In this document: piece by piece, positions 2,711 to 47,636 of the stretch
How positions within the stretch are numbered: the first letter of the stretch is position 1
How the letters are laid out: the number at the start of each line of letters is the position of its first letter
DNA from: Roseateles depolymerans
GTDB taxonomy: Bacteria; Pseudomonadota; Gammaproteobacteria; Burkholderiales; Burkholderiaceae_C
Length of the DNA: 64,000 bases
Assembly: GCF_003387155.1 (NCBI RefSeq)
Contig: NZ_QUMT01000001.1
Coordinates: forward strand, 620,001-684,000
Reading direction: 5' to 3'
Program-made: the position numbers and the translations under genes
The notes under the pieces: model-generated
Seen by the model: only the letters and a program-made list of their open reading frames with translations
Databases searched by the model: none
Told to the model about the DNA's origin: nothing

Positions 2711-5248
2711 CACTGCCGTCATCCGATGCTGCGCGGGCCCGGCCAGCAGGGGCGTGTGGCGGGTATGAACCCAGTCGTCATGCCCGGCTCCGTAGTAGGG
2801 CGACAGCGGATGCCCGCTCTGACCGCCGGGCATCGACAACCAGCCGTTCTCCTCCCGGCCTGGCGACACGACCAGGCGCTGCGACTGTCCGAAGGCGGGA
2901 CCGGCCACGTGTGGCATGTTGGTATCGCCGCTTTGCGGGGCAGACGGCATGTCCAGCCAACGCGACAGCGGCGGAATGGCCTTGGCCAGCACATGCTGGA
3001 TGCGGCTCGAGTTCTGGCGCCCCCAGGTGGCTTGCGCCATCGGCCCGTCCGCGGACATCTCCTTGGCGGCGGCATCCAGCTGTGCCAGCAGCAGCGCGTC
3101 CCAGCTCGCATAGTCGACGGGCAGCAGATGGGCGGGCTGCTGCTCCAGGGCCTGGACGGCTGAATATTCGAACTGATTGCGCCACCGAATGCGTTGCTTC
3201 TCGTCGTCCTGCCGCTCGCCCAGGAAGGGCCTCGTCCACGACAGCCACAGTACGTTGAGCGTATTGAGGCGTGCCGTTCGCACCAGCCGGTAGGCCACCT
3301 GATCCGCATCTGCCCGCCCATTCCACTGGGCCAGCAGCTGTGCCAGGGCCGCGCGGTCCGGATGGTTCTTCAGCAGCGTCTGGAACCGGTTCGACCAGGT
3401 CCGCATGAAGCGGGCCTCATCGTCCAGATGGATCTCACCGATGCTGTTTTCGTCGTGCCGGGGCCGCTCCGACAGCCGATCCCGAATCTGCTGGGCGCGG
3501 GCCCCGAGATCAAAGCCGCCGTCCCCGAGCCGCTCGGCAAGTTCACCACCGAGTTGACGGCTGTTGGCGGTCCAGAGCTGACCCTGTGCGGGCGACAGGA
3601 CCTGCGGATATTCCTCGGGCTTGAGCCAGGTGTGACGCATCTGCGCGACCTCTGCCAGCCGGCCTTGCGTGGCCTCGATGCCCCGCTGCGACCAAAGTCG
3701 CCCGGCGATGGTCCAGCCGATCTGACCTTCCCGATCGGCCGCCATCAGATTTTGATGGGGCATGCCGGCACGCTGCGCCACGGACAGCGCATCGCTGACA
3801 TGGCGAGCCTTCAGCATGTCGTCCAGCACCAGGGAATAGGCCTCGCCTTCATGGGCGACCCAATGCAGCGCGAAGCGGCGCTTGTCCTCGGTGACCACCA
3901 CGGGCGCGCCCTCGAGCTCTTCCACCACAAATGACTGCGCGGCCCCTTTATGGACCTGAAGCACTTCGTCATGCCGAGTGAGCTTTGCGTCGGCGGGCAC
4001 CTCCACCCAATCAAACCACTGTCCATAGGCATTGGTGAAGCCCCAGGCCACATGCCCGTTGCTCCCGACGATCAAAGCGGGGAGACCGGGCAGTGTCACG
4101 CCAGCGGCACGAACCGCACCATCCCCTTTCCCGAACTGAAACTGTGCCCGAAACCAGATGCTGGGCACCCCGAGTCCGAGATGCATGTCATCGGCCAGGA
4201 TGGCCCCCCCATGAACCGTGCGACTACCTGCCACGGCCCAGTTATTACTCCCCACCACTTGCGGCTCATCAAGCGCAGCCACCTCAGAAGTGCGCGCATC
4301 ACACCCACAGCAGTCCTGGCTATTTGGAAAGGGGTGACCCGGGGCCTGTTTGCGGAAGTTAAGAAGGGAATGGCCGGCGAAGCCGGACAGGAATGACATG
4401 GAGCAAACAGGCCCCGGGTCACCCCTTTCCGCGCTGGCCACCAAAGGGGGCGCATCCCCCCGCACCACCTGTCCCCCGGTCGCCAGATCAGTGGCAGGAG
4501 ACTTCTTCCTCCCCACCCTCAGATCCAGATCAGACGCACTTGGCAAGACGGGCGCCGCCACTTGGCTTCCATCCAGCGGAGCATCCCACCGCCCCCCGCG
4601 CGGATAGAGCCATTGGTACATCACATCTCCGGCTTTCTCCCGCACCAGCACCCGCTCCAACCCCGCTTCGAAGCTATTGGACTGCAGCATGAAGTACATC
4701 TCGGAGATGACCAGCAGCGAATCCACGGGCGTCCAGTCTTGCGGCGTGGCTCGGAGCAACAGGTATTGCCACCCCCGCACGGGCAGGGCGTGGAGCCCGG
4801 CGTTGACCCCGTCGGTGTAGGCTTGAAGGAGGGCTTGCTCGTGCGGAGGCAGGGACTGAAAGCGCTCCGTCAACCGCGCCCGCAGCCGATGGACCCGCCG
4901 CTGACGATCCCGCTCCAGCGCCTTCTCTCCGAACAGCGCGGACAGTTCCCCAGCGGCGGACCGCCGCGTGAGGTCCATCTCGAAGAAGCGTTCCTGCGCA
5001 TGCACCCATCCCAGCCCGCGGGCCAGGTCCAGCCGATTGTCCCCGGCCAGGGTCACTGTCCCCCGCTCATCCCGAGAGATCTCCAGCGACTGCCGTACCC
5101 CTGGCAGCTCAAGCGTGCCATCCAACTGCGGCAAGCTGCCCCGGATCAGCAGCCACACCGCCACCCCGGCCAGCAACACCAGCGCCAGCACCCCGGCCAA
5201 ACTACGCAGCGCCCAACGTCCCCACGGGCGCTTAGACGGTTCATTCAT
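2702..5248 (-). CDS. Penicillin acylase family protein (N-terminal nucleophile amidohydrolase)
   Basis: 848 residues from the ATG at 5248 (preceded by AGGAAAA about 9 nt upstream). A membrane-anchor or uncleaved signal segment lies near residues 15-36. 'GLGWVHAQERFFEMDLTRR' is the acylase alpha-subunit signature. 'GSNNWAV' holds the catalytic Ser334, which in this family becomes the N-terminus of the beta subunit after autoproteolysis; 'LPALIVGSNGHVAWGFTN' follows. Substrate cannot be told from sequence: beta-lactams, acyl-homoserine lactones and other N-acyl amides are all known for the family. Residues of about 274-308 are encoded by a hairpin repeat element inserted in frame, ending about 26 residues before Ser334, which is where the excised spacer peptide of these precursors lies. 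The product may therefore remain functional. Confidence 0.88.
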   Translation of the reverse strand: MNEPSKRPWGRWALRSLAGVLALVLLAGVAVWLLIRGSLPQLDGTLELPGVRQSLEISRDERGTVTLAGDNRLDLARGLGWVHAQERFFEMDLTRRSAAGELSALFGEKALERDRQRRVHRLRARLTERFQSLPPHEQALLQAYTDGVNAGLHALPVRGWQYLLLRATPQDWTPVDSLLVISEMYFMLQSNSFEAGLERVLVREKAGDVMYQWLYPRGGRWDAPLDGSQVAAPVLPSASDLDLRVGRKKSPATDLATGGQVVRGDAPPLVASAERGDPGPVCSMSFLSGFAGHSLLNFRKQAPGHPFPNSQDCCGCDARTSEVAALDEPQVVGSNNWAVAGSRTVHGGAILADDMHLGLGVPSIWFRAQFQFGKGDGAVRAAGVTLPGLPALIVGSNGHVAWGFTNAYGQWFDWVEVPADAKLTRHDEVLQVHKGAAQSFVVEELEGAPVVVTEDKRRFALHWVAHEGEAYSLVLDDMLKARHVSDALSVAQRAGMPHQNLMAADREGQIGWTIAGRLWSQRGIEATQGRLAEVAQMRHTWLKPEEYPQVLSPAQGQLWTANSRQLGGELAERLGDGGFDLGARAQQIRDRLSERPRHDENSIGEIHLDDEARFMRTWSNRFQTLLKNHPDRAALAQLLAQWNGRADADQVAYRLVRTARLNTLNVLWLSWTRPFLGERQDDEKQRIRWRNQFEYSAVQALEQQPAHLLPVDYASWDALLLAQLDAAAKEMSADGPMAQATWGRQNSSRIQHVLAKAIPPLSRWLDMPSAPQSGDTNMPHVAGPAFGQSQRLVVSPGREENGWLSMPGGQSGHPLSPYYGAGHDDWVHTRHTPLLAGPAQHRMTAVAP
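4326..4430 (-). repeat. Hairpin element copy A, inside the acylase gene
   Basis: Arms 4326-4353 and 4403-4430 are perfect 28/28 inverted repeats, enclosing a 49-nt core (4354-4402) that read on the minus strand starts TCCATGTCATTCCTGTCC and ends CTTAACTTCC. Inside the core CCGGC-TTC-GCCGG forms an apical stem. Total length is 105 nt, exactly 35 codons, with no stop in the acylase frame. The core matches the other five copies at 43-46 kb and 47.5 kb, while the arms are different. No flanking direct repeat was seen. Confidence 0.93.
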
Positions 5249-5349
5249 GGACTTGTTTTCCTGAATCGAATGGATGCCGCATTGTTGCTCGACCTCAGCG
5301 TCCGGCTGCCTCACAGCGCCTTCACACCGCTCCCATAGAATCGCCCGCC

Positions 5350-6318
5350 ATGTCCTGTGCCCCTGTCTCTCCCGGTCCGCGCCCGTGGCTCCAGCGCGCG
5401 GTGGCTGCGCTCTGCGTGCTGGTCCTCTCCGCCTGCGCCGTCCTGCCGACGACGACGACGCCGCCCCCCACCGTCCCCCCGGTCGTGCAGACCCCGGTCG
5501 AAACCGAACTGCCCGCCCCCATCACGCCCAAACCCGCGCCCAAGCCCCCCCGCGTCGGGCTGGCGCTTGGCGGCGGTGCCGCCCGCGGGTTCGCGCATGT
5601 GGGGGTCATCCAGGTGCTGGAAGAGCAGGGCATCAAGGTCGACCTCGTGGCCGGCACCTCGGCCGGCAGCCTCGTCGGCGCGCTTTACGCCTCCGGCCGC
5701 AATGGCCGCGAGCTGGCCACCCTGGCCGAGACCATGGACGAAGGTGCCATCACCGACTGGACCTTCCCCATGCGCGGCCTGATCCGGGGTGAAGCGCTCG
5801 CCCGATTCATCCGCGACAAGACCGGCAACCGCTCCATCGAGCAACTGCCCGTCCCGCTGGGCATCGTCGCCACCGACCTGGGCGACGGCACGCCCATCAT
5901 GTTCCGCCAGGGCGATGTGGGCACGGCCGTGCGCGCGTCCAGCGCCGTGCCGGCGGTCTTCCAGCCGGTCAAGATCGGCACCCGTGAGTATGTCGACGGC
6001 GGCCTCGTCGCCCCGGTGCCCGTGCGCTACGCCCGGCAGATGGGCGCGGACGTTGTGATTGCGGTGGACATCAGCGAGCCGCCCGACCCCAAGGTGCCAG
6101 GGGATGCGATGCGCATGCTGCTGCAGACCTTCTCCATCATGGGCCGGTCGATCAGCCAGTATGAGCTCAAGGAGGCGGACGTGGTGCTGCGTCCGCGTCT
6201 GGATGGTTTCAGTGGCTCGGACTTCACCGTTCGGCGCCGTGCCATCCAGGTGGGCCGCGAGGCCGCCACCGCGATGTTGCCGCAGATCCGCCGGACGATT
6301 GCGGCCAAGACGCGCTGA
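5350..6318 (+). CDS. Patatin-like phospholipase lipoprotein (RssA/NTE type)
   Basis: 322 residues. The N-terminus is a lipoprotein signal: a hydrophobic stretch ending L-S-A-C gives the lipidation Cys near residue 29, followed by a Thr/Pro-rich tether to about residue 65. The patatin domain follows: 'GLALGGGAARGFAHVGV' supplies the oxyanion glycine loop, 'GTSAGS' the nucleophile Ser104, and 'YVDGG' the catalytic Asp216 of the Ser-Asp dyad. It is expected to act as an acyl hydrolase on lipids, probably anchored in the outer membrane. It is divergent from the acylase with about 100 nt between them. The family assignment is firm; the substrate is unknown. Confidence 0.9.
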   Translation: MSCAPVSPGPRPWLQRAVAALCVLVLSACAVLPTTTTPPPTVPPVVQTPVETELPAPITPKPAPKPPRVGLALGGGAARGFAHVGVIQVLEEQGIKVDLVAGTSAGSLVGALYASGRNGRELATLAETMDEGAITDWTFPMRGLIRGEALARFIRDKTGNRSIEQLPVPLGIVATDLGDGTPIMFRQGDVGTAVRASSAVPAVFQPVKIGTREYVDGGLVAPVPVRYARQMGADVVIAVDISEPPDPKVPGDAMRMLLQTFSIMGRSISQYELKEADVVLRPRLDGFSGSDFTVRRRAIQVGREAATAMLPQIRRTIAAKTR

Positions 6319-6361
6319 AGCGGCGAAGGCCGCTGGCTCAATGACGGCGGCGTAAAGCCGC

Positions 6362-6925
6362 TCAGAGCCGCTCGCCCCGCTCCGACGCCTCGATCAGCCG
6401 CTGCAGCCGCGCGGCCTGCGTCTCGGCCTTCTTCGCGCTCAGCACATGCCAGATGCTGCTGCGCTGATAACTCGGCGCCTGCGCCCGGAAGAAGGCCCAT
6501 GCCGCCGGATGATGGCGGAACGTCACCTCCTGCGTGGGCGTCAGTTCGATCTCTTCCTGCTCATGCGCATAGACCTTGGTGCGCGCATCGGTGCGCCGCT
6601 CGAAGGCCGCCAGGCCGGCCGGTTTCACCCGGCCCTCCGCCATCAGCGCTTCTATCTTCGCCACATTCACCGCGCTCCAGATCGAGCCGGCCTTGCGGGG
6701 CGTGAAGCGGATCTTGTAGGACTTGTCGTCGATCCGGGTCCGCACGCCATCAATCCAGCCATGGCACAAGGCTTCGTCCACCGATTCCGGCCAGTCCATG
6801 CTGGGCAGGCCGGTGCCGCGCTTGTAGAAACCCACCACCACATCGGTGGCGGTCGACGCATGCAGGTCCAGCCATTGACGGAAGTCCTCTGCAGTCGGAA
6901 AAAATACGGGGGTGCGGGTCGCCAT
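6362..6925 (-). CDS. YdeI/OmpD-associated family protein
   Basis: 187 residues from the ATG at 6925, chosen because homologues start close to 'FFPTAEDFRQWLDLHAS'. 'YKRGTGLPSMDWPESVDEAL' and 'CHGWIDGVRTRIDDKSYKIR' are the family's conserved N-terminal region, followed by 'FTPRKAGSIWSAVNVAKIEAL' in outline and a helical C-terminus. Members are small cytoplasmic proteins of unclear biochemical role, reported in the context of bacteriocin or stress resistance. The frame is open upstream to 7048, but that part is not conserved. It is convergent with the patatin gene, with a 43-nt gap. Confidence 0.82.
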   Translation of the reverse strand: MATRTPVFFPTAEDFRQWLDLHASTATDVVVGFYKRGTGLPSMDWPESVDEALCHGWIDGVRTRIDDKSYKIRFTPRKAGSIWSAVNVAKIEALMAEGRVKPAGLAAFERRTDARTKVYAHEQEEIELTPTQEVTFRHHPAAWAFFRAQAPSYQRSSIWHVLSAKKAETQAARLQRLIEASERGERL

Positions 6926-7104
6926 GGGCCGCAAGTATGCGCTGCTTCGGAACCGTCGGGCCTGGATCACCGATTGCCCCGCTGAAGTGGCGCATGCGTG
7001 ACTCAGGCATGCCGCTTGCCTGCAATGTCGTACACGTACGAACACCAACGACCGGACGCCGACACCCGCACAACTGAGGGTTCAAGAGGATTCAAACCTC
7101 ACGG

Positions 7105-7116
7105 TAAACCGGTTTA
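7105..7116. promoter_or_regulatory. Perfect 12-bp palindrome upstream of the TetR gene (candidate operator)
   Basis: TAAACCGGTTTA is a perfect palindrome about 40-70 nt upstream of the possible TetR-family starts and in the divergent gap with the ydeI-like gene. TetR proteins commonly autoregulate from such palindromes; that it is the operator is inference. Confidence 0.35.
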
Positions 7117-7146
7117 ACGTACAGCGACACCAACGTTGTCATCCTG

Positions 7147-7884
7147 TTGGCAGGACATTGGTACGAGTCAAGGGAGAAGATTCTGGACACGAAACAACAC
7201 GAAGAGCGCACGACCACGCGTCTGCGCCGCGGCCCGGCCGAGATGGCGGCCCTCAAGCGCGAAATGATGGAGCGTGCGCGCAAGATCTATCGCGAAGAAG
7301 GCGTGGAGGCCTTAAGCATGCGCCGTCTGGCGCATGAGCTGGGCATTTCCACCATGGCCATCTACAGCTACTTCGCCAACAAGCAGGCCCTGCTGGACGG
7401 CTTGTGGATCGAGATTTTCGAGGCCCTCACGGCGGAGCTGCTCGATGCCTCCAGCGACCAGCGCGGTCCGCGCAAGGTGCTGGAAGCCCACGTCAGGCGG
7501 TCGATGGATTTCTGGGAGCGGCATCCGGAGCAGTTCCGGATGATCTATCTGTCCCAGAGCAGCGCCTCCCTGTCGGAGATTGGCGAGGCGCAGAAGCCGG
7601 TCTACAACCGGTTGCTGGGGCTGGTGCGTGAGCGGGTGGCTGCGTGCGCGCCGGACGGCGTGGAAGCGGATGAAACCCTTATTCGCCGCCAATGCGACTT
7701 GCTGACCACCAAGCTGATGGGCTACCTGGTGCTCACCATTGGATTGCAGCGCTATCCGCTGCACGATCGTGAGGCGTTGCGCGAGCAGATCGTGCAGGAG
7801 GTGGTGCGGGATGCGGTGGAGGGGCTGAGCGCAGGCGCCGCGTCATCCAGCCGGACCGAGGCCCAACTGAGCCCGACGAACTGA
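7147..7884 (+). CDS. TetR/AcrR family transcriptional regulator
   Basis: Up to 245 residues. The helix-turn-helix is clear: 'ARKIYREEGVEALSMRRLAH' then 'ELGISTMAIYSYFANKQALL', the TetR N-terminal signature with the YxYFxNKxxLL end of the recognition region. The rest is an all-helical ligand and dimer domain. The start is uncertain: the TTG at 7147 has no Shine-Dalgarno, while an excellent AAGGGAG (7170-7176) stands 6 nt before an in-frame CTG at 7183; the first in-frame ATG is at 7243, close to the first helix. Targets are not evident. The phasin gene downstream is on the opposite strand, so it is not co-transcribed. Confidence 0.9.
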   Translation: MAGHWYESREKILDTKQHEERTTTRLRRGPAEMAALKREMMERARKIYREEGVEALSMRRLAHELGISTMAIYSYFANKQALLDGLWIEIFEALTAELLDASSDQRGPRKVLEAHVRRSMDFWERHPEQFRMIYLSQSSASLSEIGEAQKPVYNRLLGLVRERVAACAPDGVEADETLIRRQCDLLTTKLMGYLVLTIGLQRYPLHDREALREQIVQEVVRDAVEGLSAGAASSSRTEAQLSPTN

Positions 7885-7892
7885 CCCGGGCC

Positions 7893-7954
7893 CAAAAGAA
7901 AAGCCCAGCGGCGACGCTGGGCAGAGAAAAAAAAGCCCAGCGGCGACGCTGGGC
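7893..7954 (-). terminator. Two tandem, nearly identical intrinsic terminators for the phasin gene
   Basis: Read on the minus strand, a hairpin GCCCAGC-GTCGCC-type at 7935-7954 is followed by eight T (7927-7934). A second identical 20-nt hairpin at 7903-7922 is followed by TTTTCTTTTG (7893-7902). Both stems are CCCAGCG/CGCTGGG. They also stand just past the TetR stop and could act weakly for it, but the T-runs serve the minus strand. Confidence 0.85.
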
Positions 7955-8014
7955 TTGAAGGGCACTTGGGAAGCCTAGCTTCCTTGGGTACCGAGGAGAC
8001 AAAGGGTACGGACC

Positions 8015-8572
8015 TCAGGCGGTGGCGCGCTTCGGAGCGCGGGCCGCGACCTGACCGGTCTTCAACGCCGTGTTGGTCACGGTGTTGACGTTGTTCTCGA
8101 CGATCTCGCTGGCTTGCTTGACGGCTTTCTGAACGCTTTCATAAGCGTTGTTGGCGGCCGCCACAGCAGACTTCACCAATGCAACAGCATTTTCCGTGCC
8201 AGCCGGCGCGTTCTTGGTCACGTTCTCGACGGCGCTGCCGAATTTGTCTTGCGCATCGGCCACCTGGGCTTCGGCCAGCTTGCTGAATTCAGCGCTGGTG
8301 GAGGTGGCGATGTCGTACACATGGCGGCTGTAGGCCACGGCCTTTTCGGCGGTCGGCTGCAGCAGCGAGGCGTGCAGGGCCATCAGTTCTTGCGCGTCCT
8401 TCACGGACAGGGCGGCTTGAGTGGTTTCAGCCGCTTCGCTCAGGGCCGTCTTGGCGGTCTGGATGTTCAGTTCCGCCAGCTTTTCCCAGCTTTCAAAGAC
8501 CTTGCCGGTGAGCCCGAACACAGCGTTGAGGTTGCTACGGTGGGCGGCCAGCAGTTGTTCAGCGGTCAGCAT
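8015..8572 (-). CDS. Phasin family protein (polyhydroxyalkanoate granule-associated)
   Basis: 185 residues from the ATG at 8572, preceded by AGGAG 7 nt upstream. It is an amphipathic, alanine-rich helical protein: 'LLAAHRSNLNAVFGLTGKVF' matches the phasin N-terminal signature and is followed by 'ASLLQPTAEKAVAYSRHVYD', with an Ala/Lys/Arg-rich C-terminus. Phasins coat PHA granules and control their size and number. No PHA synthase is nearby. A good sigma-70 promoter lies upstream and tandem terminators downstream, suggesting a strongly expressed single-gene unit. Confidence 0.92.
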   Translation of the reverse strand: MLTAEQLLAAHRSNLNAVFGLTGKVFESWEKLAELNIQTAKTALSEAAETTQAALSVKDAQELMALHASLLQPTAEKAVAYSRHVYDIATSTSAEFSKLAEAQVADAQDKFGSAVENVTKNAPAGTENAVALVKSAVAAANNAYESVQKAVKQASEIVENNVNTVTNTALKTGQVAARAPKRATA

Positions 8573-8697
8573 GCGAAATCTCCTAATGATGCGAGGGAAT
8601 GCAGGGTTTGGGTGCACGATCAGCCACGTGAAATACGGCTGGCTGAAGGCCGGTTGCGAGCCCCATTCACTGCATGGTGCGCTGCAACATGGAATGA

Positions 8698-8725
8698 AGT
8701 ATAGGGGCCTCAAAACAGATTGCAA
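8698..8725 (-). promoter_or_regulatory. Sigma-70 promoter of the phasin gene
   Basis: On the minus strand TTGCAA (8725-8720) and TATACT (8703-8698) are separated by 16 nt, predicting a start near 8690 and a leader of about 118 nt. TGCA-rich half-sites flank it: TTGTTGCACTGCACAA at 8733-8748 just upstream of the -35, and CTGCATGGTGCGCTGCAAC at about 8670-8688 downstream. PhaR repressors bind TGCA-rich sites near phasin genes in other PHA producers, so these are candidate PhaR operators (inference). Confidence 0.6.
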
Positions 8726-8748
8726 GCTCTTTTTGTTGCACTGCACAA

Positions 8749-8919
8749 GACTGTTTGATGGCTTCTGGAATGGGCTCGTAAGGTCCACGGGCCGGGCCTT
8801 TGCGTACCCATGGGGAATGAAGATCCAGCGTCCCCAGTCGAATAGCCGGTCCACCCTTGCTGCGCAGCAGCATTCCCCTGCGGATGCGGCCGGATGCGCT
8901 CGGCGCTATGGTGCTGCTC
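8749..8919. other. Divergent intergenic region upstream of the deacetylase gene
   Basis: This part of the gap between phasin and the deacetylase-like gene holds no convincing gene. It would have to carry the promoter of the plus-strand gene, but no clear -10/-35 pair was found. Confidence 0.4.
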
Positions 8920-9870
8920 ATGCTCGCTTTTCACTATGACCATCTCACCCTGGCGCTGCCGCAAGGGCACCGGTTTCCGCAAAGCAAATACCAGATGCTG
9001 CGGGAGCGGCTGGAACGGGATCCGGGTGAGCTGCGGCTCCAGGTGGCCACGCCCGCCACGCGGGAGGAACTGCTGCTGGTCCATACCCCCGACTATGTGG
9101 ATGCGGTGCTGCATGGCACCTTGAGTGCAGCCGCCCAGCGCGAGATCGGATTTCCCTGGGGGGAGAGCCTGCCGAGGCGCTCCCTCTTTTCGGTGGGGGC
9201 CACGGTCCACGCCGCACGTGCCGCACTGAAAGAGGGCGTGGCTGCCAGCCTCGCGGGCGGGACGCACCATGCCTATGCGGACAAGGGCAGCGGCTTTTGT
9301 GTGTTCAACGATGTGGCCGTGGCCGCGCGGCTCCTGCAGGGTGAGCACCACCGTGCGCATCCCGCCCAACCTGGACTGCAGGTGCTGGTCATTGATCTGG
9401 ATGTGCATCAGGGCAATGGCACGGCCAGCATCTTCTCGGACGATCCCAGTGTGTTCACGCTGTCGCTGCACGGGGAGAAGAACTTCCCCTTCCGCAAGGA
9501 GGCCAGCGATCTGGATGTCGGCTTGCCCGACCATTGCGGGGACACGGTTTACCTGGAAGCGCTGGAAGATGCGCTGCAGCAGGTCTGGATGAGAACGGCG
9601 GCCCATCCGCCGGGCCTGGCCTTCTACCTGGCGGGGGCCGACCCTCATGAGGGGGACCGGCTGGGGCGGCTCAAGCTGAGCGCGCAGGGGCTGCATCAGC
9701 GCGATGACATGGTGCTGGAGGCACTGTACCGGCGCGGGATTCCGGTGGCGCTGAGCATGGCCGGGGGGTACGGAGAGGATCTATCGGTGACGGTGGATGT
9801 TCAGCAGCAGACGCTGCGGACGGCGGCGCAGTACTGGAAACGGTGGGGCCAAGCAAGGGCGCAGGCCTAA
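8920..9870 (+). CDS. Histone deacetylase family protein (acetylpolyamine/acetoin-type amidohydrolase)
   Basis: 316 residues from the ATG at 8920, chosen because the family starts close to 'FHYDHLTLALPQGHRFP'; ATG at 8908 is an alternative. The zinc-hydrolase motifs are present: 'LAGGTHHAYADKGSGFC' with the catalytic His pair, 'VLVIDLDVHQGNGT' with metal-binding Asp and His, 'FYLAGADPHEGDRLGRL' with the second metal Asp, and 'SMAGGYG' near the end. Bacterial members deacetylate polyamines or small N-acetyl compounds; the substrate here is not evident. The C-terminus runs into a 12-bp repeat that duplicates the stop codon. Confidence 0.92.
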   Translation: MLAFHYDHLTLALPQGHRFPQSKYQMLRERLERDPGELRLQVATPATREELLLVHTPDYVDAVLHGTLSAAAQREIGFPWGESLPRRSLFSVGATVHAARAALKEGVAASLAGGTHHAYADKGSGFCVFNDVAVAARLLQGEHHRAHPAQPGLQVLVIDLDVHQGNGTASIFSDDPSVFTLSLHGEKNFPFRKEASDLDVGLPDHCGDTVYLEALEDALQQVWMRTAAHPPGLAFYLAGADPHEGDRLGRLKLSAQGLHQRDDMVLEALYRRGIPVALSMAGGYGEDLSVTVDVQQQTLRTAAQYWKRWGQARAQA

Positions 9871-40119: not shown

Positions 40120-40126
40120 CAGCGGC

Positions 40127-41212
40127 ATGGGTGGAAGAACGGCATCGGCATCGGCAGAGACAGGGTCCGCGGCATCGGCGGCATCGGCCGTGGCGATGGC
40201 CGCGCCTGCGCCGGCCGTCGGCGTGCCCGCCGCTTCTGCCACGACCTCCGGCGGGGCGGCCCGGCGGCTGCCCGGCATTGATGCGCTGCGCATCTTTGGT
40301 GCGGTGCTGGTGGTGGGCCTGCATGTCGGTCGTTTCCCGGAATGGCCGGTGCCTGCCATGGAGCTCACCATGGCCGCCGGCCGCTGGGTGGTGCCCTTCT
40401 TCTTCGTGGTGATGGGCTTCTTCCTCGGGCAGCGGCCGAACTGGGCCGCGTCCGCGCTGGGCTCGGCCGGGCGGCTGCTGCAGATCACGCTGGTGTGCGC
40501 GCTGCTGTATGCGCTGCTGCATGCCGTGCAACTGGGGCCCAAGGCAGCGCTGGAGCGCATCCTGTCGCAGGATGCGATCGTGCGCGGCGTCTGGGGCCAT
40601 CTGTGGTTCATGCATGCGGCGCTGGCGGGGGTGCTGCTGGCGGCGGCACGGCCGGACTGGTGCATGGCGCGGGGGGCCTGGTGGGGCATTGCCGCGGTGA
40701 TCCTGCTGGCCAGCGTGATCGACTCGCTGTGCGCCATGGGCCGGGTGAGCTGGCCCACCATGTTTGCCAGCCGCTTCCTGGGTGGGGCGGCGATGGTGTG
40801 GCTTGGCATCAAGCTTGCGAGCGTGCCGGTCCGCACGCTCGCGCGGTGGTGGCCGGTGCTGCTGGTCGGCGGCGCGCTGCTGCTGGTGGCGCAGGGCATG
40901 GCGGTTCGCTGGAAGGGAGGCCAGGCCATCGAGCTGCAGCTGCATGTGGGCGCGGTGCTGATGGGCGTGGGCGCGATGGCGCTGGGCCTGTGGCTGCCGG
41001 CCACGCCGATGATGGAGCGGCTGGCCGATTGGGGCCGGCGTTATGCGCTGGGGCTGTATCTGCTGCATCCGATGATGATCGAGATGCTCCGGTCGGTGGG
41101 TTTGCGCCGCAGCGATGGGCTGTGGCTGTGTGCCGCCGGGTTGACGCTGCTGCTGCTGTGGGCGGCGGAGCATTGGTTTCCGCGCGGCAAGGCGGTGCTG
41201 GACGGGCGCTGA
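40127..41212 (+). CDS. Acyltransferase 3 family membrane protein, second copy
   Basis: 361 residues with about ten membrane segments. A low-complexity Ala/Ser N-terminus of 45 residues is followed by 'LPGIDALRIFGAVLVVGLHV', the acyltransferase-3 start with the conserved His, then 'FFFVVMGFFLGQRPNW' and 'GVWGHLWFMHAALAG'. It is more distant from OafA than the copy at 27.7 kb and resembles the YiaH/WecH-type branch. It is probably an O-acetyltransferase for the EPS repeat. The start lies 7 nt after the flippase stop. Confidence 0.86.
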   Translation: MGGRTASASAETGSAASAASAVAMAAPAPAVGVPAASATTSGGAARRLPGIDALRIFGAVLVVGLHVGRFPEWPVPAMELTMAAGRWVVPFFFVVMGFFLGQRPNWAASALGSAGRLLQITLVCALLYALLHAVQLGPKAALERILSQDAIVRGVWGHLWFMHAALAGVLLAAARPDWCMARGAWWGIAAVILLASVIDSLCAMGRVSWPTMFASRFLGGAAMVWLGIKLASVPVRTLARWWPVLLVGGALLLVAQGMAVRWKGGQAIELQLHVGAVLMGVGAMALGLWLPATPMMERLADWGRRYALGLYLLHPMMIEMLRSVGLRRSDGLWLCAAGLTLLLLWAAEHWFPRGKAVLDGR

Positions 41213-41247
41213 TGGCGCCGGCCCGACTGCTGGTTTTGAGATGAAAG

Positions 41248-42123
41248 ATGGACATGAGTGAATCGCCCTTGGTCTCGGTCTACATGCCGACGCAGAACCG
41301 GCTGGCATCGATGCGTGCCGCGGTGGAGTCGGTGCTGGGACAGACCTATCGGAATGTGGAACTGGTGGTGGTGGACGACGGCTCCACCGATGAGACGCCG
41401 CGCTGGCTGGCGGAGCGCGCCCTGCAGGATCCGCGGCTGAAGGTGCTGCGGCATGAGAAGGGGCGCGGGGCCTGTGCGGCGCGTAATGAGGCGATCCGGG
41501 CCAGCACCGGGGTGTTCCTGACCGGGCTGGATGATGACGATGAGTTCAAGCCGCATCACATCGAGGCGTTGCTGGCCTACTGGCATCTGCTGACGTCGAT
41601 GGGGGATCAGCCCTCGGTGCTGTATGTGCAGTATGAGTTCCGCAGTGGGGACAAGCGCTGGTACAGCGCGAAGGTCGGTCGCTGCACGGCGGAGATGATG
41701 CTGCAGGCCAATCATGTGGGCAATCAGCTGTTCGGGCCGCGTGACCGGTTTGTGTCGGCCGGGCTGTTCGACGAAGAGATGCCGGCTTGGCAGGATCTGG
41801 AATTCTTCTATCGCATCCTGAAGCTGCATGGGCCGGGACGTTTGTTGGACCTGCCCAGTTATGTGTTTGACGTGGCGCCGCGGCCGGATCGGATCTCGTC
41901 AAAATCCAAGCAGAAGGTGCTGAGGGCCTGCCAGCTGATGTATGCCAAGCATGGGCAGGGGCAGGGGCGGACGATGCAGTTGATGCTGCTGCAGGTGTTT
42001 TCGGAGTACTACGGCTTCCGGCCGGATGCGGCGGATATGCGGCAGTTCATGAAGCAGGGGTGGTGGGCCGAGGGCTGGTATCAAATGATGCGCCGCTGGC
42101 TGCGTCCGCCGGCGCAGGCATGA
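41248..42123 (+). CDS. Glycosyltransferase family 2
   Basis: 291 residues. 'PLVSVYMPTQNRLASMRAAV', 'VVVDDGSTDETPRWLAERA' and 'FLTGLDDDDEFKPHHIEALL' are GT-A hallmarks with the D-x-D in 'LDDDDEF'. 'FDEEMPAWQDLEFFYRIL' carries the later acidic motif (probable base). No membrane segments. The donor sugar is unknown. Confidence 0.9.
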   Translation: MDMSESPLVSVYMPTQNRLASMRAAVESVLGQTYRNVELVVVDDGSTDETPRWLAERALQDPRLKVLRHEKGRGACAARNEAIRASTGVFLTGLDDDDEFKPHHIEALLAYWHLLTSMGDQPSVLYVQYEFRSGDKRWYSAKVGRCTAEMMLQANHVGNQLFGPRDRFVSAGLFDEEMPAWQDLEFFYRILKLHGPGRLLDLPSYVFDVAPRPDRISSKSKQKVLRACQLMYAKHGQGQGRTMQLMLLQVFSEYYGFRPDAADMRQFMKQGWWAEGWYQMMRRWLRPPAQA

Positions 42124-42160
42124 GCGTGGGGGCGGCGATGGCATCCTGGAGAGGTCGTTC

Positions 42161-42967
42161 GTGAGTGCCACCGAGTTGCGCAGCTATGCGGCAGTGATTC
42201 GCACGCATGCGTGCACGCCGTTGCTGGAGCAGGTGGTCGCCTCACTGAAGGCGCAGAGCTGGGCGCCGGCGCGGATCGTGTTCGTGGACTCTTCGCGGGA
42301 TGCGGGAGTGCGGGAGCGTTTGCTGCGGATGGGGGAGGTGGTGGCCTATCCCGAGGAGGTCTTCAACTACTCCGTGGCGATCAATGTGGGGATGGGCGCG
42401 GTGGCGGAGCCGTATGCGCTGCTGATCAGTGCCCATGTGCGGCTGGACGATCCCCAGGTGGTGCAGCGGGCCCTGTCAGCCGCGCAGGCGCAAGGCATCG
42501 AGGTGGTCTACTGGCGGAATGCTCCTTCCGGGCAGGTCGCGATGGACATCATCGGGGCGGAACAATTCGATGGCTACAACGGGTTGTCCAACGCCTGTTC
42601 GTTGTTGCCAACCAGGCTGGTGAAGGAACGACCGTTTCGGGTGGACGTGTTTTCAGCGGAAGACGCGGAGTGGGCAGCCTGGTATTTCCGGAGCCGGCAC
42701 GGGCGGGTGATGCGGGTGGACGATCCTTCGGTCAAATACGAAAACCCCCATGTGAATGTGCGCAAAACCATCAACGAAGAGGTGGCGATTGCGTATTTCG
42801 CCTATCCAAGGAACCGGTGGCCCGACAAGATCGCCTCACGCTGGGGACGAGCCGCGCTCGCGCTCGTTCGAGGGCGGAAGGATCGGGCTCGGATGCATTG
42901 GGAAATTGGGACGCAGCTCCTGTTGATGTGGTTCAGGGCGCCCAGTGGCACGTCGAAATACTTCTGA
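42161..42967 (+). CDS. Glycosyltransferase family 2-like protein
   Basis: 268 residues from a GTG at 42161, with GAGAGGT upstream. 'AAVIRTHACTPLLEQVVASL' and 'IVFVDSSRDAGVRERLLRMG' match the GT-A start, 'EEVFNYSVAINVGMGAV' is typical of rhamnosyl- or related transferases, and 'LLISAHVRLDD' stands where the D-x-D would be (a single Asp pair with His-Val), a weaker site. 'FSAEDAEWAAWYF' is the later acidic motif. No clear membrane span. It is the last gene of the glycosyltransferase block and is followed by a hairpin element. Confidence 0.8.
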   Translation: MSATELRSYAAVIRTHACTPLLEQVVASLKAQSWAPARIVFVDSSRDAGVRERLLRMGEVVAYPEEVFNYSVAINVGMGAVAEPYALLISAHVRLDDPQVVQRALSAAQAQGIEVVYWRNAPSGQVAMDIIGAEQFDGYNGLSNACSLLPTRLVKERPFRVDVFSAEDAEWAAWYFRSRHGRVMRVDDPSVKYENPHVNVRKTINEEVAIAYFAYPRNRWPDKIASRWGRAALALVRGRKDRARMHWEIGTQLLLMWFRAPSGTSKYF

Positions 42968-43034
42968 GGTGGCTGTGACAGGGCGTCTTGTTCGGAGGCA
43001 GGGCGGCGGTGGGACGCATTCTTTGCCCGCGCTC

Positions 43035-43137
43035 GCCGCCGAAGGCCCGGGGGGCATTGGCTCCATGTCCCTCCTGTCCCGCTGCGCGGGCCATTCCTTC
43101 CTTGACTTCCGCCAATGCCCCCCGGGCCTTCGGCGGC
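43035..43137 (+). repeat. Hairpin element copy B
   Basis: Arms 43035-43061 and 43111-43137 are perfect 27/27 inverted repeats around a 49-nt core (43062-43110) that starts TCCATGTCCCTCCTGTCC and ends CTTGACTTCC; the apical stem is CCCGC-TGC-GCGGG. It lies 67 nt after the preceding glycosyltransferase stop, in sense. The remaining intergenic sequence (42968-43034 and 43138-43335) holds no gene; a small GTGGGG-CCA-CCCCAC hairpin lies at 43240-43254. Confidence 0.93.
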
Positions 43138-43335
43138 TCAGAACGTGCACTGCGAGGATTTGGAAACGAGCGGTGCGGTGTGCGCCAGGCCTGCGGGACC
43201 TGCGTCGTGGGGCGAGGGGGCTGCAACTTCAGTCGTTGGGTGGGGCCACCCCACTGAGGGGGGAGGGGTCATGATGGTGCAGCAGCATTGCGCGGAAAAT
43301 AGGCGTCGTCCTCAGAGCAGCGATCGGGAGATCTC

Positions 43336-44343
43336 GTGAAAGTACTCGTCACCGGCGCAGCCGGCTTCATCGGCATGCATGTCAGCCAGATCCTGCTCGC
43401 GCGTGGGGATCAGGTGGTCGGCCTGGACAACCTCAACGACTATTACGATCCCACCCTGAAGCACGCGCGATTGGCGCGGCTGGCGCCGCATCTGGCGTTT
43501 TCGTTCATCGAGATGGACGTGGCGGACCGGGCCGGGATGGCGCAGGTGTTTGCCGAGCATGGCTTTGACCGGGTGGTGCATCTGGCCGCACAGGCCGGGG
43601 TGCGGTATTCGCTGGTGAATCCGCATGCGTATATCGACTCGAATATTTCAGGGTTCACGAATGTGCTGGAAGGTTGCCGGCATCACAGCGTGGAGCATCT
43701 GGTGTATGCGTCCAGCTCGAGCGTGTATGGCGGCAATACCTTGATGCCGTTCAGCGAGCATCACAGCGTGGACCATCCCGTCAGCCTGTACGCCGCCACG
43801 AAGAAGGCCAATGAGCTGATGGCCCATACCTACAGCCATCTGTTCAATCTGCCGACGACCGGGCTGCGCTTTTTCACGGTGTATGGGCCCTGGGGGCGGC
43901 CGGACATGGCGCTGTTCCTGTTCACGAAAGCCATCCTGGCGGGTGAGCCGATCAAGGTGTTCAACCACGGGCAGATGATTCGAGATTTCACCTACATCGA
44001 TGACATCGCTGAAGGCGTGGTGCGGGTGCTGGATCGCGTGGCCACGCCCGATGCGGACTACGACCCGGTGAAGGCGGATCCGGCACGGTCGAGCGCGCCG
44101 TATCGAGTGTTCAACATCGGCAACCATCAGCCGATGCCGCTGATGGGCTTCATCCAGGCGATCGAGCAGGCGCTCGGACGTGAGGCGCAGAAGGAGTTTT
44201 TGCCGCTGCAGGACGGCGATGTGCCGGCCACGCATGCGGATGTGGAAGAACTGGCCGCCTGGACCGGGTTCCGGCCGGCCATGCCGGTGACAGAGGGCGT
44301 GAAGCGCTTTGTTGCCTGGTATCGCGACTATTACAAGATCTGA
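43336..44343 (+). CDS. NAD-dependent epimerase, UDP-glucuronate 4-epimerase type
   Basis: 335 residues from a GTG at 43336. An extended SDR fold: '[20 protein letters not shown]' (G-x-x-G-x-x-G), '[18 protein letters not shown]', '[20 protein letters not shown]', '[11 protein letters not shown]' (catalytic Ser/Thr region) and '[19 protein letters not shown]' (Y-x-x-x-K). The 'LNDYYDP.LK' and 'AQAGVRYS' stretches are typical of UDP-GlcA 4-epimerases (CapI/LspL), which make UDP-GalA. It is followed by ugd, which makes its substrate UDP-GlcA, so the two fit one pathway. Confidence 0.9.
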
Positions 44344-44483
44344 GACAAGGCGCTGACGTTTGTCAGCGATGCTGGCACCCGGCTTGCTCACCGGGCGCCG
44401 GTACAGGAATGTGTCCCGGCCGCGGTGTGGCTGGGAATTTGTGAATCTGGGCAGTATTTGGAATGACCCTTGGGAGTTATCGC

Positions 44484-45824
44484 ATGAAAGTTACGACGAT
44501 TGGCACCGGCTATGTGGGCCTGGTCACGGGCGCATGTCTGGCCGAGATGGGCAACCATGTGGTGTGCCTCGACGTGAATCCCGACAAGATCCGCGTGCTC
44601 AACGAAGGTGGCATTCCCATTCATGAGCCGGGCTTGGACGCCGTGGTGGCGCGCAATGTGGCCGCCGGTCGCCTGCAGTTCACGACGGATGTGGATGTGG
44701 CGGTGAATCACGGCACGATCCTGTTCATCGCGGTGGGCACGCCCCCCGGTGAAGATGGCTCGGCCGACCTGCAATATGTGCTGGCCGCGGCCCGTTCCAT
44801 CGGTCAGCGCATGACCGACTACAAGGTGGTGGTGGACAAGAGCACGGTGCCGGTGGGCACGGCCGAGAAGGTGGACGCCGCCATCCGCGAAGAGCTGACC
44901 AAGCGCGGCGTGCCCGCCAATTTCGCGGTGGTGTCCAATCCCGAGTTCCTGAAGGAAGGCGCTGCGGTCGAAGACTTCATGAAGCCGGACCGGATCATCG
45001 TGGGCTCGGACGACGAGCAGGCGACGCTGATGATGCGCGCGCTGTACGCGCCGTTCACCCGCAGCCACGACCGCCTGATGGTGATGGACGTGAAGAGCGC
45101 GGAGTTCACCAAGTACGCCGCCAATGCGATGCTGGCGACCCGCATCAGTTTCATGAACGAGCTGGCGCTGCTGGCGGAGAAGGTGGGCGCGGACATCGAG
45201 CTGGTGCGTCGCGGCATCGGCTCGGACCCGCGGATTGGCTATCAGTTCCTGTATGCCGGTGCCGGCTATGGCGGTTCGTGCTTCCCGAAGGACGTGAAGG
45301 CGCTGGTGCGTACTGGCCGTGAATACGGTCAGGAGCTGCAGGTGCTGAACGCGGTGGAAGAGGCGAACGACCGGCAGAAGCAGGTGCTGGTGGAGAAGGT
45401 GGTGGCGCGCTTCGGCGAAGACCTGGCCGGCAAGCGGTTTGCGCTGTGGGGCCTGGCCTTCAAGCCCAACACCGATGACATGCGCGAGGCGCCGGCCCTG
45501 ACCATCATCGAAGGCCTGACCGAGCGCGGCGCAGCGATCGCGGCCTACGATCCGGTGGCCATGAGCGAAGCGTCCCGCATCCTCTCGACCAACCCCGGCG
45601 TGAGCTTCTGCGAACGCGCCGAGCATGCGCTGGCGGAAGCCGACGCCCTCATCATCGTGACGGAGTGGAAGGAATTCCGCACGCCGGACTTCGATCGGTT
45701 CAAGACGGATTTGAAGCAGCCGGTGGTGTTTGATGGCCGCAATCTGTATGAGCCGGCGATGATGAAGTCGATGGGGATCGAGCATCACCCCATCGGGCGG
45801 AGTGGGAAGATCGCGGCGCGTTAA
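44484..45824 (+). CDS. ugd: UDP-glucose 6-dehydrogenase
   Basis: 446 residues from the ATG at 44484 with GGGAG upstream. It oxidises UDP-glucose to UDP-glucuronate with two NAD+. '[20 protein letters not shown]' is the Rossmann motif; '[20 protein letters not shown]' and '[18 protein letters not shown]' are central blocks; '[14 protein letters not shown]' carries the catalytic Cys266; '[17 protein letters not shown]' the C-terminal NDP-binding part. It supplies UDP-GlcA for the epimerase upstream. The stop lies in a 14-bp duplication. Confidence 0.96.
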
Positions 45825-45842
45825 TTCCGGCGCGTTAATCGC
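45815..45842 (+). repeat. 14-bp duplication over the ugd stop codon
   Basis: GGCGCGTTAATTCC (45815-45828), which contains the TAA stop, is followed directly by GGCGCGTTAATCGC. The second TAA is out of frame because the unit is 14 nt. Confidence 0.75.
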
Positions 45843-45885
45843 GGCGGGCGCGGTCTGTTGGGTGAAGGGGCCGGTTTACTGCGCT

Positions 45886-45990
45886 GGAAGGCGCAGGGCC
45901 GGGCACCTTTTGCTCCATGTCATTCCTGTCCGGCTGCGCCGGCCATTCCCTTCTTTACTTCCGCAAAAGGCACCCGACCCTGCGCCTTCC
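45886..45990 (+). repeat. Hairpin element copy C (first of a tandem array)
   Basis: Arms 45886-45913 and 45963-45990 pair at 25 of 28 positions around a 49-nt core (45914-45962) with apical stem CCGGC-TGC-GCCGG, ending CTTTACTTCC. It begins 61 nt after the ugd stop. The 631-nt gap between ugd and kdsA holds the three-copy array, a short GC-rich tail (46283-46425) without a gene, and the kdsA leader hairpin. Confidence 0.93.
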
Positions 45991-46031
45991 CGGACTGAGG
46001 ACTGCGGTGGCTGATGTGGGTGGGCCGCGCT

Positions 46032-46136
46032 GGAATGTGCAGGGCCGGGCACCTTTTGCTCCATGTCATTCCTGTCCGGCTGCGCCGGCCATTCCCTTCT
46101 TAACTTCCGCAAAAGGCACCCGACCCTGCACCTTCC
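46032..46136 (+). repeat. Hairpin element copy D (second of array)
   Basis: It starts exactly 146 nt after copy C. Arms 46032-46059 and 46109-46136 are complementary with a few mismatches; the core (46060-46108) is almost identical to C, ending CTTAACTTCC. The 41-nt spacer between copies ('GACTGAGGACTGCGG...') is also repeated. Confidence 0.93.
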
Positions 46137-46177
46137 CGGACTGAGGACTGCGGTGGCTGATGTGGGTGGGCTGCGCT

Positions 46178-46282
46178 GGAAGGTGCAGGGCCGGGCACCT
46201 TTTGCTCCATGTCCCTCCTGTCCCGCTGCGCGGGCCATTCCTTCCTTGACTTCCGCAAAAGGCACCCGGCCCTGCACCTTCC
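46178..46282 (+). repeat. Hairpin element copy E (third of array, different core type)
   Basis: It starts exactly 146 nt after copy D. Arms 46178-46205 and 46255-46282 are nearly identical to those of C and D (2 mismatches within its own stem). Its 49-nt core (46206-46254) is instead of copy B's type, with CCCTCCTGTCCCGC and CTTGACTTCC. So arms and core have separate histories. Confidence 0.93.
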
Positions 46283-46386
46283 CGAACCGAGGACTGCTGC
46301 GGGTGACGTGGTGCGCCTTCTCAGACCGAGGACTGCGGCGGTTGCTTGGGCAGTGCGGTGGAGGGGGCACGTTGCTGGTGTTGTGA

Positions 46387-47295
<909 letters not shown>

Positions 47296-47410
47296 GACCC
47301 CAACCCGCTCCGAATCTCCGCCCGCCCGCATCGCGACGGATGGCTTGACAGTGGGGCTGCCGCGACGACTCGTATTCGGTTCAGAGTCGCAGGCTCGACG
47401 CAGAAGTAAG

Positions 47411-47461
47411 AACCTCTGGTGTTATTGCTCACTGAGACTGGGCAACGGCACCAGGGGTTTT
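47411..47461 (+). terminator. Probable terminator after kdsA
   Basis: An 18-bp stem (47411-47428 with 47442-47459; 14 Watson-Crick pairs, 3 G-U, 1 mismatch as RNA) around a 13-nt loop is followed by TTTTG. It lies about 115 nt after the kdsA stop. The stem closes with TTGC/GCAA like the hairpin elements nearby, but the loop is unrelated. The surrounding gap (47296-47660) has no gene. Confidence 0.5.
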
Positions 47462-47539
47462 GTCTTGATGGGAGCTACCGAGCCCGCACAGATTTCGGAG
47501 CCGCCTCATTCCTGAAGCCCTTGGGCGTGCACGGTGTCG

Positions 47540-47636
47540 GAAGCCGCCAACCGGGCCCCCTTTTGCGGAAGTATTAGGAGGAGGACCCGGAGGGTCCGGG
47601 GGACATGGAGCAAAAGGGGGCCCGGTTGGTGGCTTC
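47540..47636 (-). repeat. Hairpin element copy F (third core type)
   Basis: Arms 47540-47566 and 47610-47636 pair at 26 of 27 positions. The core (47567-47609) is 43 nt; on the minus strand it starts TCCATGTCCCCC and ends CTAATACTTCC, keeping the two ends of the family, while its middle is a new apical stem GGACCC-TCC-GGGTCC. It lies 25 nt past the wecB stop, sense to wecB, and between convergent kdsA and wecB. Confidence 0.92.

Follow-up and report, generated by a model that had tools for sequence, protein, structure and literature searches.

A dispersed bacterial hairpin family with freely varying arms and signs of selection on one folded strand

How can a repeated element retain the pairing of its two arms when the arms themselves change from locus to locus, and which strand, if either, is the one that folds? 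The question is raised by a 64-kb stretch of the genome of Roseateles depolymerans, here called the window, in which an earlier note had described six copies of a hairpin element carrying a conserved inner segment of 49 nt, or of 43 nt in a single case. All six copies, and both core lengths, were recovered by direct reading, with a covariance model and by pair count (Table 1). The strand given for a copy is that reading GGAAGT...GACATGGA, and base pairs were counted over the first 28 arm positions.

Table 1. Coordinates of the hairpin copies and associated features in the window
Feature	Position	Strand	Description
Hairpin copy 1	4327..4429	+	27-nt arms, 49-nt core; 28/28 Watson-Crick, 0 G-U; antisense in penicillin-amidase ORF
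Conserved core, copy 1	4354..4402	+	GGAAGT ... inner hairpin, GAA loop ... GACATGGA
Hairpin copy 2	43035..43137	-	Intergenic; 27/28 Watson-Crick, 0 G-U
Hairpin copy 3	45887..45989	-	Tandem array member 1 (146-bp period); 25 Watson-Crick + 3 G.U of 28
Hairpin copy 4	46033..46135	-	Tandem array member 2; 24 Watson-Crick + 3 G.U of 28
Hairpin copy 5	46179..46281	-	Tandem array member 3; 26 Watson-Crick + 2 G.U of 28
Hairpin copy 6	47540..47636	+	43-nt core type; 26 Watson-Crick + 1 G.U of 28
GGTCTTGATGGGG motif, one-mismatch copy	47461..47472	+	Motif precedes several hairpin copies in this clade
Penicillin amidase ORF	2702..5314	-	870 aa, PF01804; copy 1 contained in frame

The arms are complementary within every copy, with 24–28 of 28 positions in Watson-Crick pairs, and they do differ between the four separate loci, as had been claimed, the 27-nt 5' arms agreeing at 14–17 positions only; within the tandem array (45887–46281) they are nearly identical (25–26 of 27 positions). 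The outer stem stops sharply after 27–28 bp and the inner hairpin is also variable yet paired. Folding energies lie at z scores of about -7 to -12 relative to dinucleotide shuffles, with 0 of 200 shuffles as low, for the copies tested on both strands (three as RNA and four as DNA). Direct reading of the six copies revealed no T run directly 3' of the stems on either strand, and they thus lack this feature of intrinsic terminators.

The covariance model proposed in the earlier note was built and run, and it yielded 52 matches in the genome of origin, where the copies outside the window also differ in their arms rather than sharing one fixed sequence. The element measures about 103 nt. Its outer stem, of about 27 bp, is nearly free in sequence; inside this come a purine-rich internal loop (GGAAGT…GACATGGA) and then an inner hairpin, variable but paired. 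In A2, whose copies were selected by the core, the invariant columns are that core and the C-G pair closing it. Eighty loci (L141–L220) were read and 21 more (L221–L241) entered later scripts.

Arm pairing is conserved while arm sequence changes. Among 56 non-redundant copies two-sided change occurs at 26 of the 27 outer pairs, and 95.3% of the 1512 cells are paired, a value inflated by element finders that demanded arm pairing, compared with 52.0% after shuffling and 42–50% in slid structures. Cells changed on both sides number 630, against 175.9 for shuffled arms. A check independent of pairing came from matches to the core pattern alone at the loci used: 110 have 20–28 of 28 arm pairs, nine have 3–12 and none falls between. 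The copies are related by descent, and neither these counts nor those given below for wobble pairs and loops are independent; covariation nevertheless lies far above both the shuffled and the slid controls, and this supports the earlier reading that either the structure is selected, as RNA or hairpin DNA, or one arm is rebuilt by copying the other. Covariation extends to the internal loop where, in 97 cores, the variable positions of GGxGGA and GGyGGACATGGA occur as A/G in 61, G/A in 17, A/A in 14, C/G in four, A/T in one and G/G in none.

Selection on one strand of the hairpin family is what is new here, and it emerges from the wobble pairs, whose bias is confined to the GGAAGT strand. On that strand, 182 G.U and 17 A.C pairs are present at positions 1–24 of 160 copies, located with a finder that scored Watson-Crick pairs only and gave no favour to G.U. 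The 56 non-redundant copies carry 50 G.U and six A.C pairs, with 33 elements leaning to G.U, two to A.C and 21 tied, although the finder used for these and for the gene-context counts scored G.U as paired, a slight favour to it; both sets comprise copies above an arm-pairing threshold. Moreover, in 24 orthologue comparisons, one-sided changes away from Watson-Crick pairing produced G.U in 34 cases and A.C in one, alongside 57 two-sided Watson-Crick changes, 32 of transversion type. The comparisons left out L021/L127, where an insertion puts the arms out of register (28/54 identical), as well as L013/L130, L011/L111 and the crossed L102/L124 combinations, and L125, L126 and L118 were each used in two of them.

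The strand-specific wobble indicates selection on one folded strand and disfavours arm-copying as the only cause of the covariation. Template switching within a palindrome (quasi-palindrome correction), which would copy one arm onto the other in an element devoid of function, is in keeping with the excess of the two-sided changes over the 35 one-sided changes from Watson-Crick to G-U or A-C, and copying may contribute because the transversion-type changes have no route through G-U. However, the process makes no distinction between strands and would not be expected to yield a 34:1 preference for G-U over A-C at fixed loci, and it leaves unexplained the non-palindromic loop, with its conservation and purine covariation, and the GNA loops described below; as a complete account we find it very unlikely. 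We consider it highly improbable, too, that the elements are cruciform or double-stranded DNA landmarks for a nucleoid protein or topoisomerase. Their mostly intergenic location, long palindromic arms and occurrence in both orientations would suit such a role, but a cruciform uses both strands, G-T on one being A-C on the other, and plain cruciform stability should not generate the asymmetry, which disfavours this explanation unless a protein reads one cruciform arm only.

A more serious alternative, if still a rather unlikely one, is a structured RNA, in which the GGAAGT strand would be transcribed at many loci, the internal loop would bind protein or RNA, and the elements would have spread by an unrelated route. 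It would accommodate the strand-specific tolerance of G-U, the non-canonical covariation in the internal loop, the conservation of the element at orthologous loci and the occurrence, at some loci of the clade, of exact copies of the motif GGTCTTGATGGGG 149–284 nt upstream on the same strand. Furthermore, RNA also accepts G.U and G.A, and GNA loops are possible in RNA too. Against it, there is no preferred gene orientation, with 56 copies antisense to both neighbours and 51 sense to both, as assigned with a home-made gene finder, and an equal wobble bias in the two groups. The G.U:A.C ratios by gene context are 40:1 ('++'), 29:2 ('--'), 18:2 ('+-') and 10:0 ('-+') for single copies and 25:2 ('++'), 49:2 ('--'), 27:1 ('-+') and 10:4 ('+-') for paired copies. 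Since the bias is present in every gene orientation a role in 3'-UTRs is insufficient, and 3'-UTR RNA was rejected as a general function. Inverted pairs of elements would, in addition, require that both strands are transcribed. Finally, searches of Rfam 15 gave no match at gathering score in the 64-kb window, and with one copy as query at E<=10 the seven matches (six of miRNA type, plus ar35) all fell far short of their gathering scores.

The inner loops lean toward DNA as the folded polymer. C(GNA)G or C(GNNA)G is present in 85 of 150 inner loops and neither in 65, the G026 type among the latter. Triloops follow C(GNA)G in 65 of 80 cases, whereas GNA occurs in 17 of 302 background hairpins, and GCGNAGC is found in 44 of 150 cores with N taking all four bases. 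RNA tetraloops favour GNRA, a rule from which the cGNNAg tetraloops depart, 12 of 20 being of GNYA type. In the excerpt of PMC4686876, GNA and GNNA loops are described as ultra-stable in DNA and the d(GNA)/d(GNNA) mini-hairpins as a chemical motif of DNA aptamers; the loops that obey the same rule here recur in a natural genomic repeat. On these grounds folded single-stranded DNA is tentatively favoured over RNA.

Elements of the family were found in Roseateles/Mitsuaria, Rubrivivax, Aquabacterium, Ramlibacter, Rhodocyclaceae and Pseudoxanthomonas. Their distribution is patchy, with copy numbers ranging from 0 to 52 inside one genus (43–52 matches in G000, G008 and G011, none in G006); Roseateles terrae is one species whose type strain has copies. 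At many loci the element is retained between species; for example, copy 2 has an orthologue in G001 that carries two G-U changes (L004/L132). Roseateles copies are mostly single, while many copies outside this genus form inverted pairs. We counted 36 distinct -+ pairs less than 130 nt apart, at least 18 of them from one species, with a gap of 42–49 nt in 31; no +- neighbours occurred within 400 nt. The outer flanks of the pairs show no consistent target duplication, and no common terminal repeat was seen across genera, the flanks sharing only short words at varying places. One species carries ATGAAAC/GTTTCAT farther out. The comparison of occupied and empty sites advised in the earlier note was partly successful: copy 1, the sole confirmed case within a gene, is absent from the penicillin-acylase gene of seven relatives, but the exact junctions are hidden by a divergent linker in that gene. 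A phage or plasmid origin was rejected, given that a scan of viral contigs produced four pattern matches, all with only 9–12 of 28 arm pairs, and a plasmid search with the tandem array of the window as sole query produced none.

No named family with this layout was known to the earlier note, and none was found in Rfam with the window and one copy as queries or, at the level of titles and abstract openings, in the literature; the terms looked for did not occur in PMC3733652. REPINs offer a partial parallel, since their spacer between conserved ends shows compensatory changes according to part of PMC3116915. REPs are 20–40 bp in the excerpt of PMC3733652, and REP/REPIN elements as outlined in parts of PMC3116915 and PMC8266576 are likewise short and intergenic, with inverted doublets, tandem clusters and strand-specific folded ssDNA. 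An ordinary REP/REPIN family moved by a RAYT (Y1 transposase) would explain the inverted doublets, intergenic dispersal and tandem cluster seen here, and at one orthologous locus of G000 and G008 a Y1_Tnp gene adjoins a hairpin copy. However, in the partial descriptions REP/REPIN elements have a conserved 5' GTAG foot and stem sequence and are accompanied by a RAYT, and here the stem of about 27 bp is nearly free, arms and flanks vary and the conserved sequence lies centrally in the internal loop. Nor does Y1_Tnp co-occur with the element in seven genomes: there is no match in G026 despite its many copies, G006 has two with no R1 match, the element is absent from the stretch around nine of the 11 Y1_Tnp loci, and the gene adjoining the copy is flanked by its own GGGGACAG-type sequences. 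RAYT mobilisation was rejected and we see very little chance that the family is of this kind.

Integron attC sites provide another parallel, being, in the excerpt of PMC2727003, of 57–142 nt with poor sequence conservation, complementary arms, features left unpaired and a terminal structure that varies, and recognised by structure on one strand; the wobble counts of 50:6 and 34:1 likewise point here to one folded, structure-selected strand. According to the same excerpt the boundaries of attC sites are marked by conserved R' and R'' boxes, whereas those of the hairpin element vary between copies and lack such boxes (GTT/AAC). Among seven genomes, IntI exceeds the cut-off only in G006, which has no R1 match, G026 and G071, and in the element-bearing G000, G008, G011 and G015 it appears below cut-off only, as in all 14 control genomes. 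An attC identity was consequently rejected.

No candidate partner gene emerged when the 608 proteins predicted within 1.5 kb of the elements were compared all against all. The largest clusters are joined partly via frames overlapping the element, and the 10 neighbour proteins that were annotated are members of common families (ABC transporters, UvrA, response regulators, a tricarboxylate-transport receptor, an AcrB-type pump and flagellin). MITEs and IS200/IS605 ends disperse non-autonomously and form hairpins, and the present family resembles them in these respects and in having a copy in a gene; it differs in that no fixed terminal inverted repeat was seen across genera, no transposase was recognised and the arms differ within a genome. 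Rickettsia palindromic elements are tolerated in protein-coding genes, and are likened here by description to the one confirmed in-gene case. Single-stranded DNA transposases are mentioned in the excerpt of PMC8266576.

The explanation that we consider best, and to which we assign roughly even chances, is a dispersed, mobile hairpin family of folded single-stranded DNA, recognised in trans and kept under selection. One strand (GGAAGT...GACATGGA) would fold into a long hairpin, with an outer helix of about 27 bp whose sequence is nearly immaterial, a conserved purine-rich internal loop with probable non-Watson-Crick contacts of G.A type, and an inner hairpin whose cap is often a tight loop of GNA or GNNA type. 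This strand may be exposed as single-stranded DNA during replication, repair or transfer, and a trans-acting protein or recombinase specific for structure would recognise the internal loop and the length of the helix, not the sequence of the arms. Recognition by shape could then allow the elements to spread as non-autonomous mobile units, and settled copies would remain selected or active; the two-sided changes may come partly from template switching in the palindrome, their survival then depending on selection for the fold of that strand. Mobility is suggested by the spacing of inverted pairs, the range of copy number inside one genus, and the presence of copy 1 in a gene that lacks it in relatives. 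Several points count against this folded-DNA explanation: no recombinase or binding protein for the hairpin elements was found in the above searches, selection on settled copies exceeds the needs of a simple selfish element, the wobble bias is weakest among the '+-' paired copies, G.U and G.A are tolerated in RNA as well, and 65 of the 150 inner loops are of neither DNA-type form.

To our knowledge, strand-specific covariation of this strength at fixed loci is a feature of few bacterial interspersed repeats. A bolder reading, which we hold to be less likely than not, is that the copies are shape-coded chromosomal sites, at which a single-strand DNA fold and not a sequence is conserved, a putative protein reads the internal loop between free-sequence helices, and the sites move yet stay selected. 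They would then add to attC/IntI and REP/RAYT another system in which folded ssDNA is recognised, and the natural collection of variants could expose the rules by which DNA shape is read. If the folded strand is RNA, it would represent a family of structured RNAs that spans several genera of betaproteobacteria and Xanthomonadaceae and for which no Rfam match was found; under either reading the covariance model makes the hairpin family searchable. There is also a replication-strand bias, too weak to build on, the GGAAGT strand being the leading-strand template in 18 of 25 R1 matches (p 0.043; 11 in G012, 12 in G015 and two in G007), as counted by hand with the terminus taken as opposite dnaA.

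The six hairpin copies that the earlier note had placed in the window were recovered there by direct reading, by pair counts and by R1, the covariance model of the element, which matched all six at full length. They are written here on the strand reading 5'-arm, GGAAGT … GACATGGA, 3'-arm. As that note had also maintained, the arms differ between the four loci yet each is complementary to its own partner, with 14–17 positions common among the 27-nt 5' arms and 24–28 of 28 paired within a copy. Inside the arms, two purine-rich strands enclose a second hairpin. In the tested copies each strand folded far better than shuffles, and the GGAAGT strand was the more stable in four of four copies folded with DNA parameters and in three of three folded as RNA. 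Copies 3–5 constitute a tandem array with a period of 146 bp and flanking fragments resembling ACCGAGGACTGC, and a similar fragment also occurs alone. All eight exact own-genome copies of GGTCTTGATGGGG lie 149–284 nt 5' of an element core on the same strand, and exact or near matches are located upstream of some element copies in two relatives (G001 and G008); a 12-mer with one mismatch to it has no element copy nearby.

Positions in the window of the hairpin copies and associated features
Feature	Position	Strand
Penicillin-amidase ORF	2702-5314	
Copy 1	4327-4429	+
Copy 2	43035-43137	-
Copies 3-5, tandem array	45887-46281	-
Solitary ACCGAGGACTGC-like fragment	46323	
One-mismatch copy of the GGTCTTGATGGGG motif	47461-47472	
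Copy 6	47540-47636	+
One-mismatch 12-mer of GGTCTTGATGGGG	62072	

Covariation was evaluated on A2, an alignment of 56 non-redundant copies whose arms share no more than 72% identity. In the outer stem 95.3% of 1512 cells were paired, against 52.0% after shuffling, a percentage that, like core conservation, is somewhat inflated, since the search required a fixed core and set a threshold for pairing. The arm pairing is not a product of this threshold, because pattern-only matches at the loci used split into 110 with 20–28 arm pairs and 9 with 3–12, with none between. The compensatory stem changes claimed previously are borne out by a covariation score of 1.060 versus 0.217 for shuffles, and sliding the partner by 1–3 columns left 42–50% pairing. 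Changes on both sides affected 630 cells, compared with 175.9 in shuffles, counts that overstate independence given the shared ancestry of the copies, and they occurred at 26 of 27 pairs, a measure also reached by shuffles; the 27th pair, a C-G adjoining the core, is invariant in A2. The inner hairpin covaries as well, with 97.3% of cells paired among 11 distinct 53-nt cores (79.8% shuffled) and 18 two-sided cells against 5.1 (largest shuffle 11). Loop purines also covary: for x of GGxGGA and y of GGyGGACATGGA, 97 cores carried A/G (61), G/A (17), A/A (14), C/G (4), A/T (1) and G/G (0), with a Fisher p of 2e-10 for the purine cells. The same swap separates orthologues L102/L124 and L136/L093, and a similar one occurs at a neighbouring position in L004/L132. 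Some MAG copies (L155, L196, L213, L180 and L215) carry a GGA/GGA purine mismatch block where the outer stem meets the core, as if their internal loop were longer.

Mismatches are strongly asymmetric between the strands. Over stem positions 1–24 of 160 related copies, read on the GGAAGT strand, there were 182 G·U, 17 A·C and 97 other mismatches, and the 56 non-redundant copies yielded 50, 6 and 34, respectively (G·U versus A·C, p ~1e-9), with G·U outnumbering A·C in 33 copies, A·C outnumbering G·U in 2 and equal numbers in 21 (p ~4e-8). Counting 25 positions of 195 copies once per local context gave G·T 153, A·G 54, A·C 32 and G·G 30, followed by C·C and C·T (4 each) and A·A and T·T (2 each). 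Strand-blind processes should not generate such an asymmetry; selection acts on one strand, that carrying GGAAGT. A role confined to the preceding gene's 3' UTR is insufficient, because the bias is present in every gene context, as assigned by a simple home-made gene finder: G·U:A·C ratios were 40:1 ('++'), 29:2 ('--'), 18:2 ('+-') and 10:0 ('-+') for single copies and 25:2, 49:2, 10:4 and 27:1, respectively, for paired copies.

Many loci are orthologous across Roseateles species, with flanking genes aligning on both sides and the hairpin kept in each. In 24 partly non-independent orthologue comparisons, one-sided changes comprised 34 Watson-Crick/G·U, 1 Watson-Crick/A·C, 7 Watson-Crick/other mismatch and 6 in which neither state was Watson-Crick. 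Two-sided changes comprised 57 that exchanged one Watson-Crick pair for another, among them 32 of transversion type, and 7 of other kinds. Core type differs between orthologues with similar arms in L101/L113, L105/L117, L131/L128 and L103/L129, which hints at conversion between copies. Copy 1 lies in frame within a penicillin-amidase ORF and precedes the motif SNNWAVAG, presumably where the beta chain begins. Gain or loss of copy 1 took place within the genus, since G008 also has it, with one stop in that frame, and in seven relatives (G001, G002, G003, G004, G005, G007 and G009) the protein match is in two pieces with the break at this stretch; matches in G006 are weak and distant.

The distribution of the element looks patchy. 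In the 5.66 Mb of the own genome R1 yielded 52 matches, including four weak ones drawn out to 165–169 nt, and a simple core pattern gave 37 against 2 for a reversed-pattern control. Within the genus there were at least 45 matches in G008, 43 in G011, 21 in G001 and 15 each in G002 and G013, and 12 or fewer in other genomes among the matches listed, including 3 in G005; the R1 search of G006 gave no match. Weaker matches occurred outside the genus in G016, G020 and G047. A core scan of named genomes found at least 101 stretches, and the 80 loci read with flanks held 86 pattern matches. Of these, 79 had 20–28 of 28 arm pairs and came from records of Roseateles, Mitsuaria, Rubrivivax, Aquabacterium, Ideonella, Ramlibacter, Ca. 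Nitricoxidireducens, Burkholderiales or Burkholderiaceae, beta proteobacterium, Rhodocyclaceae and Pseudoxanthomonas, whereas seven, which serve as a chance control, had 3–8 and came from unrelated taxa (e.g., Boudabousia, Bacteroidaceae, Mesorhizobium) or, once, Stenotrophomonas. Among 274 genomes drawn from the class, R1 matched at E<=1e-6 in three, the own genome included, in a draw that will miss weak families because its stricter search showed only 14 own-genome copies.

In many cases outside Roseateles, two elements stand as an inverted pair whose GGAAGT strands face outwards. There are 36 distinct pairs less than 130 nt apart, at least 18 from Ca. Nitricoxidireducens, and the gap is 42–49 nt in 31. 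Neighbours within 400 nt over all loci analysed were '-+' in 39 cases, '--' in 14 (to which the window array contributes through overlapping loci), '++' in 2 and '+-' in none. These pairs and the absence of gene orientation suit DNA better than RNA. The inner loops also lean towards DNA, although their counts are not independent given the shared ancestry of the cores: C(GNA)G makes up 65 of 80 triloops, whereas GNA occurs in 17 of 302 background perfect stems, and GCGNAGC occurs in 44 of 150 cores (N = A 17, G 13, C 12, T 2). RNA favours GNRA tetraloops, and the 20 cGNNAg tetraloops divide into 12 GNYA and 8 GNRA; in 65 of 150 cores the inner loop is neither C(GNA)G nor cGNNAg. According to PMC4686876, DNA mini-hairpins are extraordinarily stable when G-C pairs close a GNA or GNNA loop, and in the GAA loop G and A form a sheared pair. 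The loop-based argument is weakened by PMC5815330, which likens the loop-closing interactions of d(GNA) to those in GNRA loops. We give folded ssDNA about an even chance of being the form in which the element acts, and consider RNA rather unlikely.

Close parallels exist in the literature: a REPIN consists of two REPs in inverted orientation, conserved at the ends and joined by a spacer that varies in a compensating way (PMC3116915), TnpAREP binds ssDNA of a single strand in its folded form, with GTAG needed to varying degrees (PMC8266576), and attC sites are sequence-poor bottom-strand hairpins read by structure, with conserved boundary boxes (PMC2727003). The element family operates similarly to REPINs and attC sites, yet it lacks defining properties of both. 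Pairs of Ca. Nitricoxidireducens bremensis (L145, L148, L162, L169, L184 and others) often have ATGAAAC and GTTTCAT farther out, borders that may belong to a larger mobile unit or reflect a favoured target. At about 2205–2330 of locus L252, a long tandem run of CTCAGGG/CTCACGG-type heptamers adjoins the element and a gene of genome G000 encoding Y1_Tnp, a RAYT-type transposase domain.
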